Shown here piece by piece: positions 6,069-22,139 of a stretch of DNA of 32,217 nucleotides. Numbering within the stretch: position 1 is the stretch's first letter; every line of letters begins with the position of its first letter. This DNA is from Chloroflexota bacterium. GTDB lineage: Bacteria > Chloroflexota > Dormibacteria > Dormibacterales > Dormibacteraceae. Below the pieces are notes generated by a model. The model was not told where the DNA came from. It saw only the letters and a list, made by a program, of their open reading frames with translations, and did not search any database. The stretch lies in assembly GCA_005879675.1 (NCBI GenBank), contig VBJE01000040.1:1-32217 (forward strand). Direction: 5' to 3'. The position numbers and the translations under genes were made by a program.

Positions 6069-6281
6069 TCAGTCGGTGTAGCGGGTAATTGTGCGGTCTT
6101 CGCGCCGTTTTTCAGCCTGGTATAACGGGCAATCCTCGAAATTCCGTACGCAGATGGGTGGGCTGTCAGCAAGCGTGTACTTACGCTTGGAGCGGTGGTC
6201 GACGTGGCAGTCGAACCGATAGATGCGCAGGGGACCACGGGTGTCCTTCACCAGTTCCTCGAGATACGGGCACCTTCGCAT
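6069..6281 (-). CDS. Small Cys-containing hypothetical protein (70 aa)
   Basis: MRRCPYLEELVKDTRG…RFDCHVDHR…SPPICVRNFEDCPLYQ; divergent from ligase; TATCGT 8 nt upstream of ATG. Confidence 0.65.
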   Translation of the reverse strand: MRRCPYLEELVKDTRGPLRIYRFDCHVDHRSKRKYTLADSPPICVRNFEDCPLYQAEKRREDRTITRYTD

Positions 6282-6288
6282 CCCGACT

Positions 6289-6295
6289 TACGATA
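6289..6295. promoter_or_regulatory. Putative bidirectional overlapping -10 element (TACGATA) for ligase (+) and 70-aa gene (-)
   Basis: TACGAT on + and TATCGT on -, each exactly 8 nt from its start codon. Confidence 0.55.
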
Positions 6296-6302
6296 GGTCA
6301 CC

Positions 6303-7958
6303 TTGTTGGAGTTCGCCCGTGCGGGAGCGGCAGTAGGCGCGACCTCCGCCACCCTCGAGAAGACGCGCATCCTCGGCGCCTACTTCCGCACGCTGGACGA
6401 GGACGACCTGCGCCGCGCCGCCGTCTACATGAGCGGGCGTGCCTTTCCACCGTCCTCGCGCCGGACCCTGGGCCTCGGCTGGTCGACACTCAGCAAGGTC
6501 GTGTCGTCGGTGTCGCGGCGTGGCGAGGATGAGCTGGGCGCCATCTTCCGCAAGCACTCGGACCTCGGCGACTGGGCCGGCGAGGCGCTCGACGGAAGCA
6601 CGCAACCAGAGGCTGTCACGCTGGCGGGCGTCGAAGCCGCGCTCGAGTCGATCCGCGCCGCGCGCGGCAACGCGAAGGCCGCCCCGCTGGAGGCAGTGGT
6701 GCGGCGCATGGACGCCGAGTCGGCGCGCTTCTTCATCAAGATCATCTCGGGAGAGATGCGGATCGGCCTCAGCGAGGGCCTGGTCGAGGCGGCCATCGCC
6801 GAGGCTTTCGATGTCCCGATCACCCAGGTCAAGCGCGTGCATCTCATCACCGGAGACATCGGCGAGACCGCGGTGCGCTGCAAGCGTGGGGAGTTCGCGG
6901 CCTCCACGATCACGCTTTTCCAACCGGTGCGCTTCATGCTGGCGAGCCCGGTCGAGACCCCGGGCGAGGCATTCACGCGCATGGGCGCGGGCGCTGTCTG
7001 GACCGAGGAGAAATACGACGGGGTCCGGTGCCAGCTCCACCGCCAGGCATCGCGGGTGGAGCTGTTCTCCCGCGACTTGAAGGAGACGACCGGGGCATTC
7101 CCCGAGCTGGTCGAGGGCGCGTCCACGATCGGCCATGACGTGCTTTTCGACGGCGAGGTGCTCGCGCATCGCGACGGACGCGTGCTGCGATTCTTCGAGC
7201 TCCAGCGTCGCCTCGGCCGCAAGAAGGTGGATGCGGCGCTGAGGCGCGAGGTCCCCGTCGTGCTCGTCGTCTTCGACCTCCTGTGGCTCGACGGCCGAAC
7301 ACTGCTCGACGAGCCGTTGACGACGCGCCGCAAGCTCCTCGAGGGCCTCGGCCTCGAGCATCCCTATCTCCTGGCACGCCTGGAGGAGGCCACCGACCCC
7401 GACCACCTCGACCGCATATTCAAGGAGACGCGCGAGCGGGGCAACGAAGGGTTGATGGTCAAGGATCCGCTCAGCCCGTACACGCCGGGACGCCGCGGCC
7501 TTGCGTGGTTGAAGCTGAAACGCCCGCTGGCGACCCTCGACGTCGTCGTCACCGCGGTCGAGTGGGGTCACGGCAAGCGCCGAGGCGTGCTCTCCGACTA
7601 CACGTTCGCGGTCAGGGACACCGAGACCGGACGTCTCGTCAACGTGGGCAAGGCTTACACCGGACTGACCGACGCCGAGATCGCCGAGTACACCAAGCGT
7701 TTCCTGGCGATGACCGTCGAGGACCATGGCCACACGCGGATGGTGCGGCCCGAAGTGGTGCTCGAGGTCGCCTTCGACTCCATCCAGCACTCGGGCCGCC
7801 ACCTGAGCGGCTACGCGCTGCGCTTCCCGCGCATCGTGCGCATCCGCGACGACAAGCCGGTGGAGGAGATCGACACCCTCGAGCGGGTGGCCGAGCTCTA
7901 CGACCGGTACTTCGGCGAGAAGTCGGAAGTCCCCCTGTCAGAAGTCGCCGAAACGTGA
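6303..7958 (+). CDS. lig: ATP-dependent DNA ligase (LigB / archaeal type)
   Basis: Nucleotidyltransferase motif EEKYDGVRCQLH, FDGEVLA, VFDLLWLDG, EGLMVKDPLSPYTPGRRGLAWLKLKR; TTG start. Confidence 0.95.
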   Translation: MLEFARAGAAVGATSATLEKTRILGAYFRTLDEDDLRRAAVYMSGRAFPPSSRRTLGLGWSTLSKVVSSVSRRGEDELGAIFRKHSDLGDWAGEALDGSTQPEAVTLAGVEAALESIRAARGNAKAAPLEAVVRRMDAESARFFIKIISGEMRIGLSEGLVEAAIAEAFDVPITQVKRVHLITGDIGETAVRCKRGEFAASTITLFQPVRFMLASPVETPGEAFTRMGAGAVWTEEKYDGVRCQLHRQASRVELFSRDLKETTGAFPELVEGASTIGHDVLFDGEVLAHRDGRVLRFFELQRRLGRKKVDAALRREVPVVLVVFDLLWLDGRTLLDEPLTTRRKLLEGLGLEHPYLLARLEEATDPDHLDRIFKETRERGNEGLMVKDPLSPYTPGRRGLAWLKLKRPLATLDVVVTAVEWGHGKRRGVLSDYTFAVRDTETGRLVNVGKAYTGLTDAEIAEYTKRFLAMTVEDHGHTRMVRPEVVLEVAFDSIQHSGRHLSGYALRFPRIVRIRDDKPVEEIDTLERVAELYDRYFGEKSEVPLSEVAET

Positions 7959-12627: not shown

Positions 12628-14137
12628 TCAGCCCGCGGTCGACGCGCTCTTGCCGATCATGTGGATGTTCTTCTCGAACATGTCCCGAAGCTTCGCCGCC
12701 TGGCGGTCGTAGTCCTCCGGGTCGGGCCAGCTGTCGCGCGTGTCCAGCACCTCTCGCGGAACGCCGGGCACTCGGTTGGGGATCTGCAACCCGAAGACCG
12801 GGTCGACGTGAGTGCGCGCACGATCGCGCGGGTGTGGGCGATCGACATGCGCTCGCCAACGCCGTGCGGTCCCCCGACCCAGCCCGTGTTGAGCATCCAC
12901 ACATCGGCGTGGTGGCGCTTCACCCGCTCCAGGAGCATGTCCGCGTAGCGCTCGGGCGGCAAGACCAGGAACGGCGCCGCGAAGCACGTGCTGAAGATCG
13001 GCTCGGGCTCGGTCACCCCGCGCTCGGTGCCGGCGACCTTGGCGGTGTAGCCGCTCAGGAAGTAATGGCGGATCTGCTCCTGGTCCAGGAGCGACACGGG
13101 CGGCAGCACCCCAAACGCGTCCGCCGACAGGAACATGATGTTGTGCGGGTGGCTGCCGACGCCTGTGAGGACGGCGTTGGGGATCAGGTCGATGGGGTAC
13201 GCGGCGCGAGTGTTCTCCGTTTTCTCGTCCGAGTCGTAGTCCGGCACGCGCGTGCGTGGGTCGTAGACGACGTTCTCCAGGATCGTGCCGAAGCTCTCGG
13301 TCGCGGTGTAGATCTCGGCTCGGACTCTTTGTGGATGCGGATCGTCTTGGCGTAGCAGCCCCCCTCGAAGTTGAAGACTCCGCGGTCGCTCCACCCATGC
13401 TCGTCGTCGCCGATGAGCCGGCGCGATGGCTCCGCAGAGAGAGTGGTCTTGCCTGTCCCGCTGAGACCGAAGAACAGCGCCACGTCGGAGCCGTCCTTCT
13501 CTGTGTTGGCGGAGCAGTGCATCGGGAAGACGCCTTGCGCCGGCAGCAGGTAGTTGAGCGCGGTGAAGATGGACTTCTTGATCTCGCCGGCGTAGCCGGT
13601 GCCGCCGATGATCACGATCCCGCGGCCGAGGTTGACGAGGATGAACGTTTCGCTATGGGTGCCGTCCCGGTGCGGGTCGGCCTTCACGGAGGGAAGCGAG
13701 ATGACCGTGAAGTCCGGCTCGAAGTTCATCAGCTCGTCGGCTGTCGGCCGGATGAAAAGGTTGCGCGCAAACAGGCTGTGCCATGCCAGCTCCGAGATCA
13801 CGCGCACGCGCAGCCGGTAGCGCGGGTCTGCACAGGCGAAAACGTCCTGCGTATAGACGTCGTGGGCGGCGACGAACTCCTCCATCCGCGCCAGCAGCTG
13901 GTCGAATTTGGCCGAGGCGATGGGCTGGTTGCCCGGGTGCCACCAGATCGCGTCCTGGCTCGTCGGCTCCTTGACGAAGAACTTGTCCTGCGGCGAACGG
14001 CCTGTGTGCTTGCCGGTCTCGGCGGTCAGGGCGCCGGTGGAGACGATGGCGGCCTCGCTGCGCCGGATCGCGTGCTCGTACAGGGCGGCAGGGCTGAGGT
14101 TTCGCCGCTCGACGGCGATCTCACTCTTCGCGGCCAC
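12628..14137 (-). pseudogene. pckA: ATP-dependent phosphoenolpyruvate carboxykinase, broken by at least two frame changes
   Basis: TGKHTGRSPQDKFFV, FFGLSGTGKTTLSAEPSRRLIGDDEHGW in one frame; EIYTATESFGTILENVVYD…TRAIVRAL in a second; THVDPVFGLQIPNRVPGVPREVLDTRDSWPDPEDY in a third. Confidence 0.88.
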
Positions 14138-14170: not shown

Positions 14171-16413
14171 CTACGCGATGCGCGCGCGGCTGCGGTTGCT
14201 GGCTCGGCGCCGCTGCTTGCCGCTGACGTAGTCGACCAGGATGTATTCCCCGAGCCGGTCGGGCGAGACGAAGAACGCCCGGCCCTTGTTGATCCTCGTC
14301 ATCTGGTTGATGAACTCGGTCAGGTACGGACCGCGCTCGAGCATGAACGTGTTGATGACGATTCGGTCGCGGGTGCACCGCTTGACCTCGCTCAGCGTCT
14401 GCTGGATCGTCTCGTACGTCGGCGGGTAGGAGAACAGGGCGCGGCCGTCCTCGCGAAGGTGGGCGGTCGGCTCGCCGTCCGTGATCATGATCACCTGGCG
14501 GTTGCCCCGATGCCTGGCCAGCAGAGAGCGCGCGAGCTGGAACCCGTGCTGCATGTTGGTCCCGTACACGTAGTCGTTGAGCGCGAGCTGTGGGAGCGTC
14601 TGGGGCTTCAGCTCCACCGCGTAGTTCGAGAAGCCGACGACGTACAGCGAGTCGCGCGGGTACTGGCTGCGGATCAGCGAGTCGAGAGCGATCGCGACCT
14701 TCTTGGCGGCCAGGAAGCACCCGCGCAGGAACATGGAGCGGCTCATGTCGATCATCAGCACCGTCGATGCCTGGGTCATAGAGAGCGCGCGAGCTGGAAC
14801 CCGTGCTGCATGTTGGTCCCGTACACGTAGTCGTTGAGCGCGAGCTGTGGGAGCGTCTGGGGCTTCAGCTCCACCGCGTAGTTCGAGAAGCCGACGACGT
14901 ACAGCGAGTCGCGCGGGTACTGGCTGCGGATCAGCGAGTCGAGAGCGATCGCGACCTTCTTGGCGGCCAGGAAGCACCCGCGCAGGAACATGGAGCGGCT
15001 CATGTCGATCATCAGCACCGTCGATGCCTGGGTCATGTGCTCGGTGCGGTGGACGATGAAGTCGTTCGCCGACATCTTCGCCGGCACCTTCGGCCCCTCG
15101 CGGACGATGGAGTTGAAGAGCGTTTCCTTCATGTCCAGGAGGAACGGATCGCCGTACTCGTATTCCTTCAGCTCGTCTGAAGCGTCGGTGCCGACGCCTC
15201 CGCGCCACAGGTTGTGCTGGCCCATGCGCGTCTTCTTGAGCTGGTCGAAGATGTCGCGCAGCGCGGACTGACCGATGCGGCGCATGCCTCGCGGCGTGAG
15301 CTCGAGGCGGCGGCCTTTGCGCTCTACATACCCCGCCTTCTCGAGCACGTCCGTCACGTGCCGCAGCTGATCCAGCGCCTGGCGGGCGTCGGGTCCCAGC
15401 AGATCCTGCGCGAGAGAGCGGTCGACGTCGTCGGGTCGGAAGCTGCCCCGCTCCAGCTGTGACTCGAGGCGGTCCATCTGCTGGAGGCGCTCCATCAAAC
15501 CCATCGCCTGTCCCAGCGTGAGCGGGTCTTCGCCGAAGAACGGATAGCGCTCGCTGATCTCGGACGGCGGCATCATCGCCTGCATGAAGCCCGAAAGGCG
15601 CGCCAGCTCCAGGCGCAGCGAGTCGTCCTGCAGGAGCGCGTCCATCATCTGGCGCAGCTCCTCGCGGGCCTCTGGGCTGAGGCTCTGCATCAGCGACTGC
15701 ATCTGCGCCATCTGTCGCTGCAGGTGTTCGAGCAGCTCGTCGAGGCTGTTGATGCCCGGCGGGAACATGTCGCCGAAACGCTGCATGAAGCCGTTGAAAT
15801 CGGGCGTGCGCCCTTCCATGCGCTGCTCCAGCATCTTGTTGAGCTCGCGCACCATGTCGCGCACACGGGAGAGATCCTGCCCTTGCATCTGCTGCAGCGA
15901 CCCCTTGATCCCCTGGAACATCTGGTCGAGCATCTGCTGCTGCAGCTTCTGCATCAGCTCTTCGAACTTCTGCCTCGCCCCATCGTCGACGAACTCGTAG
16001 TTGCGCAGTCCCTTGACGCGGCCGCCCAGGTCGTCGGGCAGCCGGTCCAGCTGGTCGGTCCGCTGCCGGGCGATGCGGTCGAGCAGCTTGCGTGCCTCGG
16101 GCGTCGCCTCTTTCAGCCGCCGCTCCATGCCCTGGCGCTCGGTGTCGATCACGTCCTGCACCTTCTGGCGCAGCTCCTCGACCGTGGAGTCGAGGTTGAA
16201 GCGGCCTAGCTCGCGCTCACGCGCCTCGCGGAGCTGCTTCAGCAGCTGCTCCAGGCCCGGAGTGTTGGGCGAGCCCCAGCGCAGGAAGCGCTGCAGGGCG
16301 GCGTTCAGGTCGCCGTAGTTCATGAGGTCGTCGGAAAGGGCGTCGAGGACGTCTCCAGCGTCCAGGTCGTCGAGCTTCTGCGTTCCGTCCCAGCGGGAGT
16401 ACCGAAACCTCAC
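14171..16413 (-). pseudogene. VWA-domain protein with long helical N-terminus, interrupted by tandem duplication
   Basis: MIDAS VLMIDMSRSM, VIMITDGEPTAH; removing one 257-bp copy gives a 1986-nt (661 aa) uninterrupted frame. Confidence 0.85.
14523..15036. repeat. Perfect direct tandem duplication, 2 x 257 bp, no spacer
   Basis: 14523-14779 and 14780-15036 identical by direct comparison. Confidence 0.97.
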
Positions 16414-18410: not shown

Positions 18411-19574
18411 CCCCTTTCTGTATCAGCGCGGAAAAGCCGATTTTCCCACACGGCCAAAACGAAGATTCCGATCGCGGCGACCGTCCACAGGTTCGGGAAG
18501 AACAGCTCGCAAGGCTGCTTGTAGAAACCGAGCATGCAGATCGCGAGCAGCATCAGGGTGACGGCTCGCCTCTGTTCCACCGCTCGCACGACGAGCAGGA
18601 GCGCGAGCGGAAGCAGAGGCAGCCACTGGTAGGGCCAGACCTCGTTGGGGATCAGCGCTCCCAGAGCAAAGCCGAGCGCCATCCCGTAGGCCGGGTTCCA
18701 TCCGCTGCGCCAGGCCGCCCACGCCGCCGCCGCGGCGAACGCCATCGCGCTCAGGTAGGACAGGACGATCGCCAGCGTGCCGAAGTGCAGGGGCGACGTC
18801 ACCAGCAGGTACCCGGTCCCGCCGGGAACCGCGAACTCCTCGCCCCCGATGTAGCGCGTGAACAGCGTGCGCACCGAGTCGTATGCGCAGTCCGGGTTGT
18901 GGGAGCCGAGCGATGGAAGCAGGACGTGCTGGTAGTAAGAGACGGCCCCTCCCCAGCCCAGGGGGATGAAGGTGATCGCTGTCACGACCACGGCCGCGAT
19001 GCCGAGGGCGGCCGCGTAGCGCACGCGGTGCGCCGGCCGCGGACCGATGGACCGCGCCGGCGATGACCGGATTTCGCCTCTCGAGCCAGATCGAGGCCAA
19101 GGCGCACACGAGCAGGATTCCTCCCCGCTGGCCCGCGCTCACGTCGGCGAAGAGCGGAGGAAAGTAACCGGCCACCAGCCAGAAAACCGGCTGCGCAACA
19201 GGGTGGCGGGTCGCGACGACGCGAAAGAGGATCGCGAGCGATGCCACCAGCGCGACGGCGTCGATCGCCGTCCAGACCTGCACGGCGACGTCCTTCGGCA
19301 GGAGCGCGATCGGGATCGCAAGCGCCGCGACCGGTGGCGGGCTGACGAAGGCGTCGAGGCCGCCGGGCGGGGCGATGATGTGCAGCCGAGCGAGGTAGTC
19401 GGCCGCGGCGTCGTACATGTGCGACGGCTCGGTCAGGTAGGCCCGCGCCCCTTCCCACATGCCTTCCGTGTCGGGGCGGCGCGGGGTGAGGACGGTCAGG
19501 ACGACGACGCGGATCCAGAACACCGCCGCCAGGGCCCAGTACAACGCCGGCCGGGTGAGGAGTCTTCCGATCAA
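18407..19574 (-). pseudogene. GT87/DUF2029-like membrane protein, interrupted around 19025-19075
   Basis: N-terminal frame RLLTRPALYWALAAVFWIRVVVLTVLTPRRPDTEGMWEGARAYLTEPSHMYD…NPVIAGA; C-terminal half (RYAAALGIAAVVVTAITFIPLGWGGAVSYYQHVLLP…) in a different frame; TTG start at 19574 overlaps LysR stop. Confidence 0.75.
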
Positions 19575-20539
19575 TCGGTGGGGGGTCGCACGCGGCCGCG
19601 CGAGCCGTCGCGCGAGAGCCAGCTCGCCTCTTTGAGGAAGTCGATGAAGGCGTGCACCGAAGCGGGCAGCTTGCGCCGGCGCAGGTGCACGATGTGCCAG
19701 TCGCGCCGAATCGGAAAGCCGCGAACGTCGAGCTCGATCAGCCGGCCGCTGGAAAACTCGAGCGCGGTCGCGTAGCGCGAGATGACGGCCAGGCCGAGCC
19801 CGGATTCGACCGCGTGCTTGATGGCCCCGTTCGATCCGAGCTCCATGGCCACGATCAGCCTGGCGCCGGCCTTGCGAGCGGCCTTCTCGAGTGACCAACG
19901 GCTCCCCGACGCAGCCTCGCGCATGATGAACGGCTGGCCGGCAAGGTCCTTCAGCGTCAGGCCGCGCCTTCCCGCGAAGGGATGACCGGCCGGCGCGACG
20001 ACCACCAGCTCGTCGCTGAGAAACGGGATGATCGCGAGCTCCGGGTCCTTCGCCGCGGGGCCGACCACCGCCAGGTCGAGCTCGTTGCGGAGCACCTGCT
20101 CCTGGACGCGTGCCCTGGTGCCGATCTCGAGCGATATCACCAGCCCGGGATGCAGCTTCTTGAACGCCCCGAGCGCCGCGGGGAGCAGGTAGATGCCGAC
20201 CGTGGTGCTCGCGCCGACGCGCAGCGTGCCGCGCTTGATGCCCCGCATCTCCTCGATCGCAACCGTCGCCTCGTCGAGGACGTCGAGCATCCTGCGCGCG
20301 TAGCTGTAGAGCACGGTCCCGGCCTCAGTGAGCTGCACGCGCTTGCCGAGCCTGTCGAGGAGCGGAAGGCCGAGGGTCTCCTCCAGCTCTTTCACCTGGT
20401 ACGAGACCGATGGCTGGCTCAGCTTGAGTCGCCGCGCGGCGAGGCTGAAGCTCGTCAGATCGGCCACGGTTTTGAACGTCCGGAGCTGGCGGAGAGTGAC
20501 CGCGCGGTCGAGATCGAGCTGAGCTTGGGCCCTGGGCAC
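19571..20539 (-). CDS. LysR-family transcriptional regulator
   Basis: LRQLRTFKTVADLTSFSLAARRLKLSQPSVSYQVKELEETLGLPLLDRLGKRVQLTEAG. Confidence 0.95.
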   Translation of the reverse strand: MPRAQAQLDLDRAVTLRQLRTFKTVADLTSFSLAARRLKLSQPSVSYQVKELEETLGLPLLDRLGKRVQLTEAGTVLYSYARRMLDVLDEATVAIEEMRGIKRGTLRVGASTTVGIYLLPAALGAFKKLHPGLVISLEIGTRARVQEQVLRNELDLAVVGPAAKDPELAIIPFLSDELVVVAPAGHPFAGRRGLTLKDLAGQPFIMREAASGSRWSLEKAARKAGARLIVAMELGSNGAIKHAVESGLGLAVISRYATALEFSSGRLIELDVRGFPIRRDWHIVHLRRRKLPASVHAFIDFLKEASWLSRDGSRGRVRPPTD

Positions 20540-20545
20540 GGCGCC

Positions 20546-20552
20546 TACGATA
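20546..20552. promoter_or_regulatory. Putative bidirectional overlapping -10 element (TACGATA) for lysR (-) and carboxylase (+)
   Basis: TATCGT on - 7 nt from GTG 20539; TACGAT on + 9 nt from ATG 20561. Confidence 0.55.
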
Positions 20553-20560
20553 TATGCGGT

Positions 20561-22139
20561 ATGGCCGCCCGCAAACCACGATCATCGCCGGCTTTGACGC
20601 CGGTGCGCCGAACCGCGCCGGCGCTCGAGGGCGTGGAGGCGCCTCAGCGCGAGGCGGCGACCGTCTCCGAGCAGAAGATCAACTAGTACCGCAAGCGCCG
20701 CTACCAGGCGCTGCACGCGGAGACCGAGGCCGCGAACAAGCGCCGTGCCGCGGGCAAGGCGACGGCTCGCGATCGCATCGAGATGCTCGTCGACGATGGC
20801 TCTTTCGTCGAGCTCGACGTCTTCGCGACGCATCGGGCGCATGGCTTCGGGATGGAGGACCGGAAGATCGCCGGCGACGGCGTGGTCGCCGGCTTTGGCG
20901 AGATCGACCGGCGCCCGGTCGCGGTCTATGCGTACGACGCGACGGTCTTCGGCGGCTCGCTGGGGGAGGTGACGGCGGAGAAGATCGTCAAGGTCCAGGA
21001 GCTTGCGATCCGCAACCGGGTGCCGATCATCGGCATCAACGACTCAGGCGGCGCGCGCATCCAGGAAGGCGTCGTCGCGCTCGCCGGCTACGCTGACATC
21101 TTCTATCGCAACGTCCGCTCGTCGGGGGTGATTCCGCAGATCAGCATCATCGCCGGACCGTGCACCGGCGGCGCCGTGTACTCGCCGGCGATCACCGACT
21201 TCATCTTCATCGTCGCCGGCCAGGGCTACATGTTCATCACGGGGCCAGAGGTCATCAAGGTCGTGACCGGCGAGGCCGTCTCGTTTGACGAGCTGGGCGG
21301 CGGCAACGTGCACAACGCCACCTCGGGGGTCGCGCACTTCCTGCCCAAGACAGAGCAGGACTGCGCCGCGGGGGTGCGCAAGCTCCTGTCGTACCTGCCG
21401 CTGTCGAACTCCGAGCGCCCGCCGTTTGTGCCCACGACCGATGACCTCGAGCGCGCCGACCCCGAGCTGCAGACGATCGTCCCCGAGTCGCCGAACAAGC
21501 CGTACGACATGCGCGAGGTCGTGTCGCGCGTGCTGGATGGGCGCGAGTTCTTCGAGATCCAGCCGTTCTTCGCCCAGAACATCGTCGTCGGGTTGGGCCG
21601 CCTCGGCGGTCATGTCGTCGGCATCGTCGGCAACCAGCCGAAGGTGCTGGCGGGCGCGATCGACATCAACGCCTCGGTGAAGGCGGCGCGATTCATCCGT
21701 TTCTGCGACGCCTTCGGGATCCCGATCATCTCGTTCGTCGACGTTCCCGGCTACCTGCCGGGGCGCGACCAGGAGCACGGCGGGATCATCCGCCACGGCG
21801 CCAAGCTGCTGTATGCGTACGCCGAGGCGACGGTGCCGAAGCTGACAGTGATCACGCGCAAGGACTACGGCGGCGCGTACTGCGTGATGTCGCCCAAGCA
21901 GATGGGCGCGGACCTGAACCTCGCCTCGCCGACCGCCGAGATCGCGGTCATGGGCCCGGAAGCGGCCGTGGGAGTACACGGCCCGCTTCGCGAACCCGTA
22001 CGTGGCCGCCGAGCGCGGCTACATCGACGACGTCATCGAGCCGAGCCAGACGCGGCGCGAGCTCGTGCGCGGGCTGCAGCTGTGCCTGCGCAAAACTATC
22101 GAGCGGCCGCCGCGGAAGCACGGGAACATACCTCTCTAA
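20561..22139 (+). pseudogene. Acyl-CoA (propionyl/acetyl-CoA) carboxylase carboxyltransferase beta chain, with in-frame TAG near the N-terminus and frame break near the C-terminus
   Basis: [92 protein letters not shown]-term [37 protein letters not shown]…KHGNIPL* in another frame. Confidence 0.88.

Follow-up and report, generated by a model that had tools for sequence, protein, structure and literature searches.

A symmetric TAnnnTA core between divergent start codons in Dormibacterota as a probable minimal bidirectional promoter

The 21-nt spacer between a lysR gene and a divergent acyl-CoA carboxylase gene is, judging from its sequence, probably (probability of about 0.8) a minimal bidirectional promoter, in which one shared symmetric -10 core would serve two leaderless or near-leaderless mRNAs. 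The spacer lies in a window of 32,217 nucleotides, the whole stretch of DNA analysed. This window corresponds to contig C266 from a draft genome that totals 2.74 Mb, spread over 396 contigs, and is 80% complete. We base this reading on observations of the spacer sequence, its conservation among relatives, the clade-wide positional enrichment of its core, a leaderless signature in the same clade, and the independence of the layout from lysR.

The layout of the locus is compact. Coordinates proposed in the earlier note were confirmed from the sequence: lysR GTG 20539 (-) and carboxylase ATG 20561 (+) are the edges of the 21-nt gap GGCGCCTACGATATATGCGGT, with TACGATA inside it (Table 1). The distances of 7 and 9 nt that the note gave between heptamer and starts hold as coordinate differences but not as unpaired nucleotides, which number 6 on the lysR side and 8 on the carboxylase side. 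In the window, the same base pairs provide a -10-like element on both strands, TACGAT (+) and TATCGT (-), and 22 nt separate the first base of one start codon from that of the other (19–23 nt in relatives). Inspection by eye for a Shine-Dalgarno sequence found no GGAG-like stretch in GATATATGCGGT before ATG 20561 or in TATCGTAGGCGCC before GTG 20539. No conserved -35 element was seen, as is common for such promoters.

Table 1. Positions of the two window spacers, their flanking genes and a third spacer elsewhere in the genome.
Feature	Position	Strand	Details
Spacer, all the non-coding DNA of the proposed bidirectional promoter	20540..20560	.	21 nt between two start codons
TACGATA symmetric core (TAnnnTA)	20546..20552	.	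Putative -10 read on both strands; conservation and clade-wide enrichment
Putative carboxylase -10 hexamer, TACGAT	20546..20551	+	9 nt to ATG 20561, 6–9 nt in most relatives; matches clade-wide TANNNT peak
Putative lysR -10 hexamer, TATCGT	20547..20552	-	7 nt to GTG 20539; matches clade-wide TANNNT peak
LysR-family regulator	19571..20539	-	GTG start, 322 aa; Pfam HTH_1 1.8e-22, LysR_substrate 3.5e-59
Acyl-CoA carboxylase carboxyltransferase subunit	20561..22136	+	ATG 20561; Pfam Carboxyl_trans 1.1e-170; interrupted here
Membrane protein gene, downstream of lysR	18416..19565	-	Frameshifted here; tblastn with L012, L107, L109 and L119 upstream proteins, 64–72% identity
Second copy of the architecture, 21-nt spacer	6282..6302	.	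TACGATA 6289–6295, flanks 7 and 7; ATG 6281 (-) / TTG 6303 (+)
Conserved 70-aa protein, partner of the 6282–6302 spacer	6069..6281	-	17/17 genomes of the genus, 86–96% identity outside own genome
ATP-dependent DNA ligase, partner of the 6282–6302 spacer	6303..7958	+	TTG start; Pfam DNA_ligase_A_M 1.2e-45, DNA_ligase_A_N 3.2e-25
Third 21-nt TACGATA divergent pair (L150)	G000:C304:8975-9001		CHASE2/adenylate cyclase-like gene / transporter-like gene

Homologues support the start codons on which this layout depends. Carboxylase proteins of relatives (L092–L094) align from residue 1 at ATG 20561, which argues that this start is correct; relatives also conserve its N-terminus, MAARKPRS...EQKINQYRKRRY. 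The lysR GTG has a GTG at the same position in relatives, with ATG there in L108 and L111, and the ligase start, TTG in the window, is GTG in G006, the relative read. A search anchored on the ligase N-terminus matched the own genome alone, relatives carrying GTG in place of the window's TTG. The 70-aa protein that starts at ATG 6281 occurs in all 17 genomes of the genus. By these sequence comparisons all four starts (20539, 20561, 6281 and 6303) stand; the earlier note had allowed for downstream starts backed by homologues, and the homologues instead favour GTG 20539 and ATG 20561.

Conservation centres on the core. Its outer TA...TA is unchanged in 28 of 28 sequences, which are the window and 27 relatives or copies, with CGA or CCA at the centre. 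Over the same 28 sequences spacer length runs from 18 to 22 nt, 21 and 19 being most frequent, and we therefore rejected a fixed 21-nt spacing as a conserved feature; compared with its 19-nt relatives, the window has two additional bases (AT) on the carboxylase side. Beyond both start codons conservation drops to third-codon-position wobble, and no conserved block was found within 66 nt to the left or right of the spacer. A 7-nt core with two discriminators of 5–9 nt spans 17–25 nt, typically about 7+7+7, and 21 nt is thus a natural value of this geometry, neither a fixed measure nor a LysR operator.

The same signals recur across the clade. The gene census took in about 2.6 Mb: about 190 kb came from the window's own genome and about 2.4 Mb from relatives, which belong to the same genus, to two sister genera and to three further families of the class. 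Genes were called with a simple home-made gene caller that picked starts by coding score alone and was blind to upstream motifs. Within the genus, TANNNT lies 6–9 nt before 13.6% of 1,216 gene starts, against a per-position background of 0.3%; the values per position are 3.4, 3.4, 2.7 and 4.1% at distances (d) of 6, 7, 8 and 9 nt, and the present locus falls at d = 7 for lysR and d = 9 for the carboxylase. The peak is present in the sister genera and the three other families as well, and is a strong leaderless signature in this clade.

The symmetric form of the box, TANNNTA, is concentrated between divergent starts. Start codons of coding ORFs lie 5–9 nt away on both sides at 15 of 173 TANNNTA sites, whereas control words in the same test gave 0 of 1,970 (ATNNNAT) and 2 of 3,491 (AANNNTT plus TTNNNAA), and displacing the TANNNTA flanks by 10 or 20 nt left 0. 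These 15 sites represent 8 distinct loci, orthology having been assigned by us from flanking genes, and Fisher's test on distinct loci gave p ~6e-10. The density of TANNNTA is 0.067 per kb overall but rises to 15.2 per kb where divergent spacers measure 15–28 nt, and the motif was absent from 4.8 kb of convergent spacers of up to 150 nt; seven of the 22 divergent spacers of 15–28 nt contain it, a count never reached by spacer shuffles. In 42 whole genomes from the family, exact 7/7 flanks were seen at 25 places and the 17/17 control flanks at 6. For the search pattern CAY-N6-TANNNTA-N8-RTG a reversed pattern was also tried as a control and proved uninformative, ATNNNAT being about eleven times commoner, and shifted-flank controls were used instead. 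Actinobacteria are a group rich in leaderless genes. In 14 of their genomes, compared at the exact 7/7 flank length only, the layout was found at 4 places versus 14 with shifted flanks; there is no excess, and leaderlessness alone thus does not produce the layout.

The recurrent unit is TAnnnTA, and other pairs carry TACGGTA, TAATCTA, TAGGATA, TAACCTA or TAAGCTA. The recurrent promoter architecture suggested in the earlier note is accordingly borne out, in the genome and in the clade, as narrow divergent spacers with a central TA-rich symmetric core, but neither the particular heptamer nor the 21-nt length is fixed.

As a word, TACGATA is not enriched. It occurs 9 times in the 2.74-Mb genome versus 11 for the reversed word, and 9, 12 and 19 times in three relatives versus 9, 12 and 15; on this balance we rejected it as an enriched word. 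Its placement, not its frequency, is far beyond chance: all nine genome copies fall outside called genes and four of them occupy narrow divergent spacers (two in the window, one of 21 nt on C304 and one of 26 nt on C312), three of these being exactly 21 nt, while two further copies (C146 and C270) stand 5–6 nt before a single long ORF. The genome-wide enrichment that the note proposed to look for therefore exists in position and is lacking in word count. The note had also described a first pair with an identical 21-nt spacer and TACGATA, which we found at 6282–6302. That spacer carries TACGATA with 7/7 flanks in G004, G006, G007, G013, G014 and G019 as well, and our search of the genus looked for the 70-aa protein always as the divergent partner of an ATP-dependent DNA ligase. 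The 70-aa protein has no match in Pfam or NCBIfam; it holds several cysteines and histidines. Spacers resembling that of L150 (CTACSATACCGGCGACATG) turn up repeatedly in the genus, at about 20 kb from the carboxylase.

Under the bidirectional reading, RNA polymerase holoenzyme could bind the TAnnnTA core in either orientation and would meet a TANNNT -10 box each time. Transcription would start about 6–9 nt to the left and right of the core, on the start codons or no more than about 3 nt away from them. Leftward transcription would yield the lysR mRNA and rightward transcription the carboxylase mRNA, both leaderless or nearly so, and the ribosome would load on them. The carboxylase hexamer, 9 nt before its ATG, is at the long end of the range, so a leader of 1–3 nt is possible on that side. 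One polymerase would probably occupy the core at a time, and the two genes would then be transcribed alternately, at a common low basal level.

Simpler accounts have to be set against this reading. That two 21-nt gaps share a heptamer within one window might be coincidence, given that the word is not enriched and that two copies in the window were reached in 9 of 100 shuffles, which is within chance; conservation of both window spacers across genera, the third 21-nt TACGATA pair on C304 and the very strong positional enrichment of TANNNTA leave that explanation hardly credible. Alternatively, only one direction could be a promoter, the other gene using an internal or distant promoter and the symmetry being incidental. 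The discriminator is exactly 7 nt on the lysR side and anywhere from 6 to 9 nt on the carboxylase side, and in L118, a more distant relative, TACGAT stands 9 nt ahead of the carboxylase start but lacks the symmetric TA, both of which would suit a one-sided promoter. We nevertheless consider it unlikely, because neither outer TA changes in any of the 28 sequences and because narrow divergent spacers concentrate TANNNTA and not one-sided TANNNT.

A LysR-controlled divergent operon is the classical alternative for such a gene pair: LysR would bind the conserved block as its operator, repressing its own gene and activating the carboxylase. LysR regulators are often placed divergently from genes under their control, the Pfam matches confirm a LysR-family protein divergent from its neighbour, and the lysR/carboxylase pair is retained in many genomes of the family. 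Against this, four relatives (L012, L107, L109 and L119) lack lysR beside the carboxylase yet keep the core and the GTG, and the orthologue of membrane gene 18416–19565 starts in them at that same GTG behind the same core; the shared region thus persists where lysR is missing. It follows that the gain or loss of lysR involved the gene as a unit and left promoter and start codon in place. Comparison of these relatives with the window shows a clean exchange, with one gene taking the place of another behind a shared start codon. Neither end of a T-N11-A LysR box, read from the window sequence, falls in 20540–20560, in keeping with the earlier claim that the genes leave no room for one, and no conserved block reaches into the 66 nt on either side. 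The layout also occurs at regulator-free pairs, such as that of the DNA ligase and others that we take, from reading their proteins, to be ABC permease/ATPase and PyrE-like/RbfA-like; by the same reading, aldolase/amidohydrolase and PolX-like/CaiB-like pairs have it too. A LysR operator in the spacer was rejected on these grounds, and LysR control as the meaning of the conserved block is improbable; the evidence concerns the spacer and its 66-nt flanks and is compatible with LysR binding elsewhere. The link to LysR that the note had raised does not explain the architecture, since the core outlives lysR and most other pairs of this type have no regulator. Persistence without lysR and occurrence at regulator-free pairs together point to a general promoter form and not to a LysR circuit.

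Both ingredients of the proposed promoter have precedents. Warman et al. (Nat Microbiol 6:746, 2021; cited in PMC12825309) reportedly described bidirectional promoters with a symmetric -10 element in E. coli, Salmonella and others. Bidirectional promoters are defined in the field by divergent start sites 7–25 bp apart, most often 18 (PMC10268837; PMC12825309); the 22 nt between the first bases of the two start codons would be compatible with that range if both mRNAs are leaderless. According to work on E. coli (PMC12825309), opposing polymerases cannot bind such promoters together, and those tested had low basal activity. The likeness to the E. coli and Salmonella promoters would be one shared symmetric -10 element for both strands. 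They are, in the text read, defined by mapped start sites and not tied to start codons (PMC12825309), whereas the Dormibacterota spacer would have its start sites at or near both start codons, which would leave a whole intergenic region of only 18–22 nt.

TANNNT next to an ORF is an established leaderless signature (Zheng et al. 2011, PMC3160421; Deinococcus-Thermus, PMC12340547; Mycobacterium tuberculosis, PMC3898074). The box is the same here, and its first T lies 12–15 bp from the start codon, against about 12 bp in PMC3160421. Zheng et al. gave few leaderless genes for Chloroflexi and did not list Dormibacterota (PMC3160421). The leaderless-gene papers treat boxes gene by gene, and the words divergent, head-to-head and bidirectional are absent from the body of PMC3160421 and PMC12340547. 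In M. tuberculosis, prpD (Rv1130) and the divergent regulator Rv1129c were both mapped as leaderless mRNAs, and the authors describe divergent promoters lying close together as common in that transcriptome (PMC3898074); this too is a divergent regulator/enzyme pair, with another regulator family and another enzyme. Our literature search, which covered subscription journals thinly and is weak evidence of absence, found nothing joining leaderless genes with bidirectional promoters and nothing on Dormibacterota transcription. Both ingredients are known, and their fused, recurrent form in Dormibacterota appears to be undescribed.

If the bidirectional reading is true, the spacer is a near-smallest possible regulatory region for two genes, with two promoters and no leader in 18–22 nt. 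The sequence rule (start codon, 5–9 nt, TAnnnTA, 5–9 nt, start codon) finds such pairs from sequence alone. Dormibacterota are a little-studied phylum of soil bacteria, known mainly from metagenomes, and the rule can correct start-codon annotation there. We raise tentatively the broader idea that merged promoters might be lineage-wide in Dormibacterota, with back-to-back leaderless genes on one palindromic -10 core, mutually exclusive transcription, start codons that fix the spacing, and genes swappable behind a conserved start as lysR was. A testable question is whether the shared core was selected to couple two genes or is a by-product of the tightest packing of leaderless genes; the comparison with Actinobacteria hints that leaderlessness is insufficient by itself.

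Several genes of the contig are interrupted. The carboxylase, whose closest named relatives are Chloroflexi/Candidatus Dormiibacterota metagenome genomes (92–95% identity), has an in-frame TAG at 20684–20686, where all close relatives read have CAG, and a net 68-nt deletion with a frameshift near 21976. Two more interrupted genes lie on the same contig, at 13316–14137 and 14764–16410. Lesions affect 4 of 40 genes in the genome's own contigs versus 0 of 90 orthologous genes put to the same test in two relatives; the frameshift in membrane gene 18416–19565 was taken separately from this test, by comparison with the lysR-less relatives. The simplest reading is that the carboxylase and other contig lesions are errors of a low-coverage assembly, gene decay being the less simple alternative. 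The promoter region is unaffected by these lesions, and is intact and conserved.
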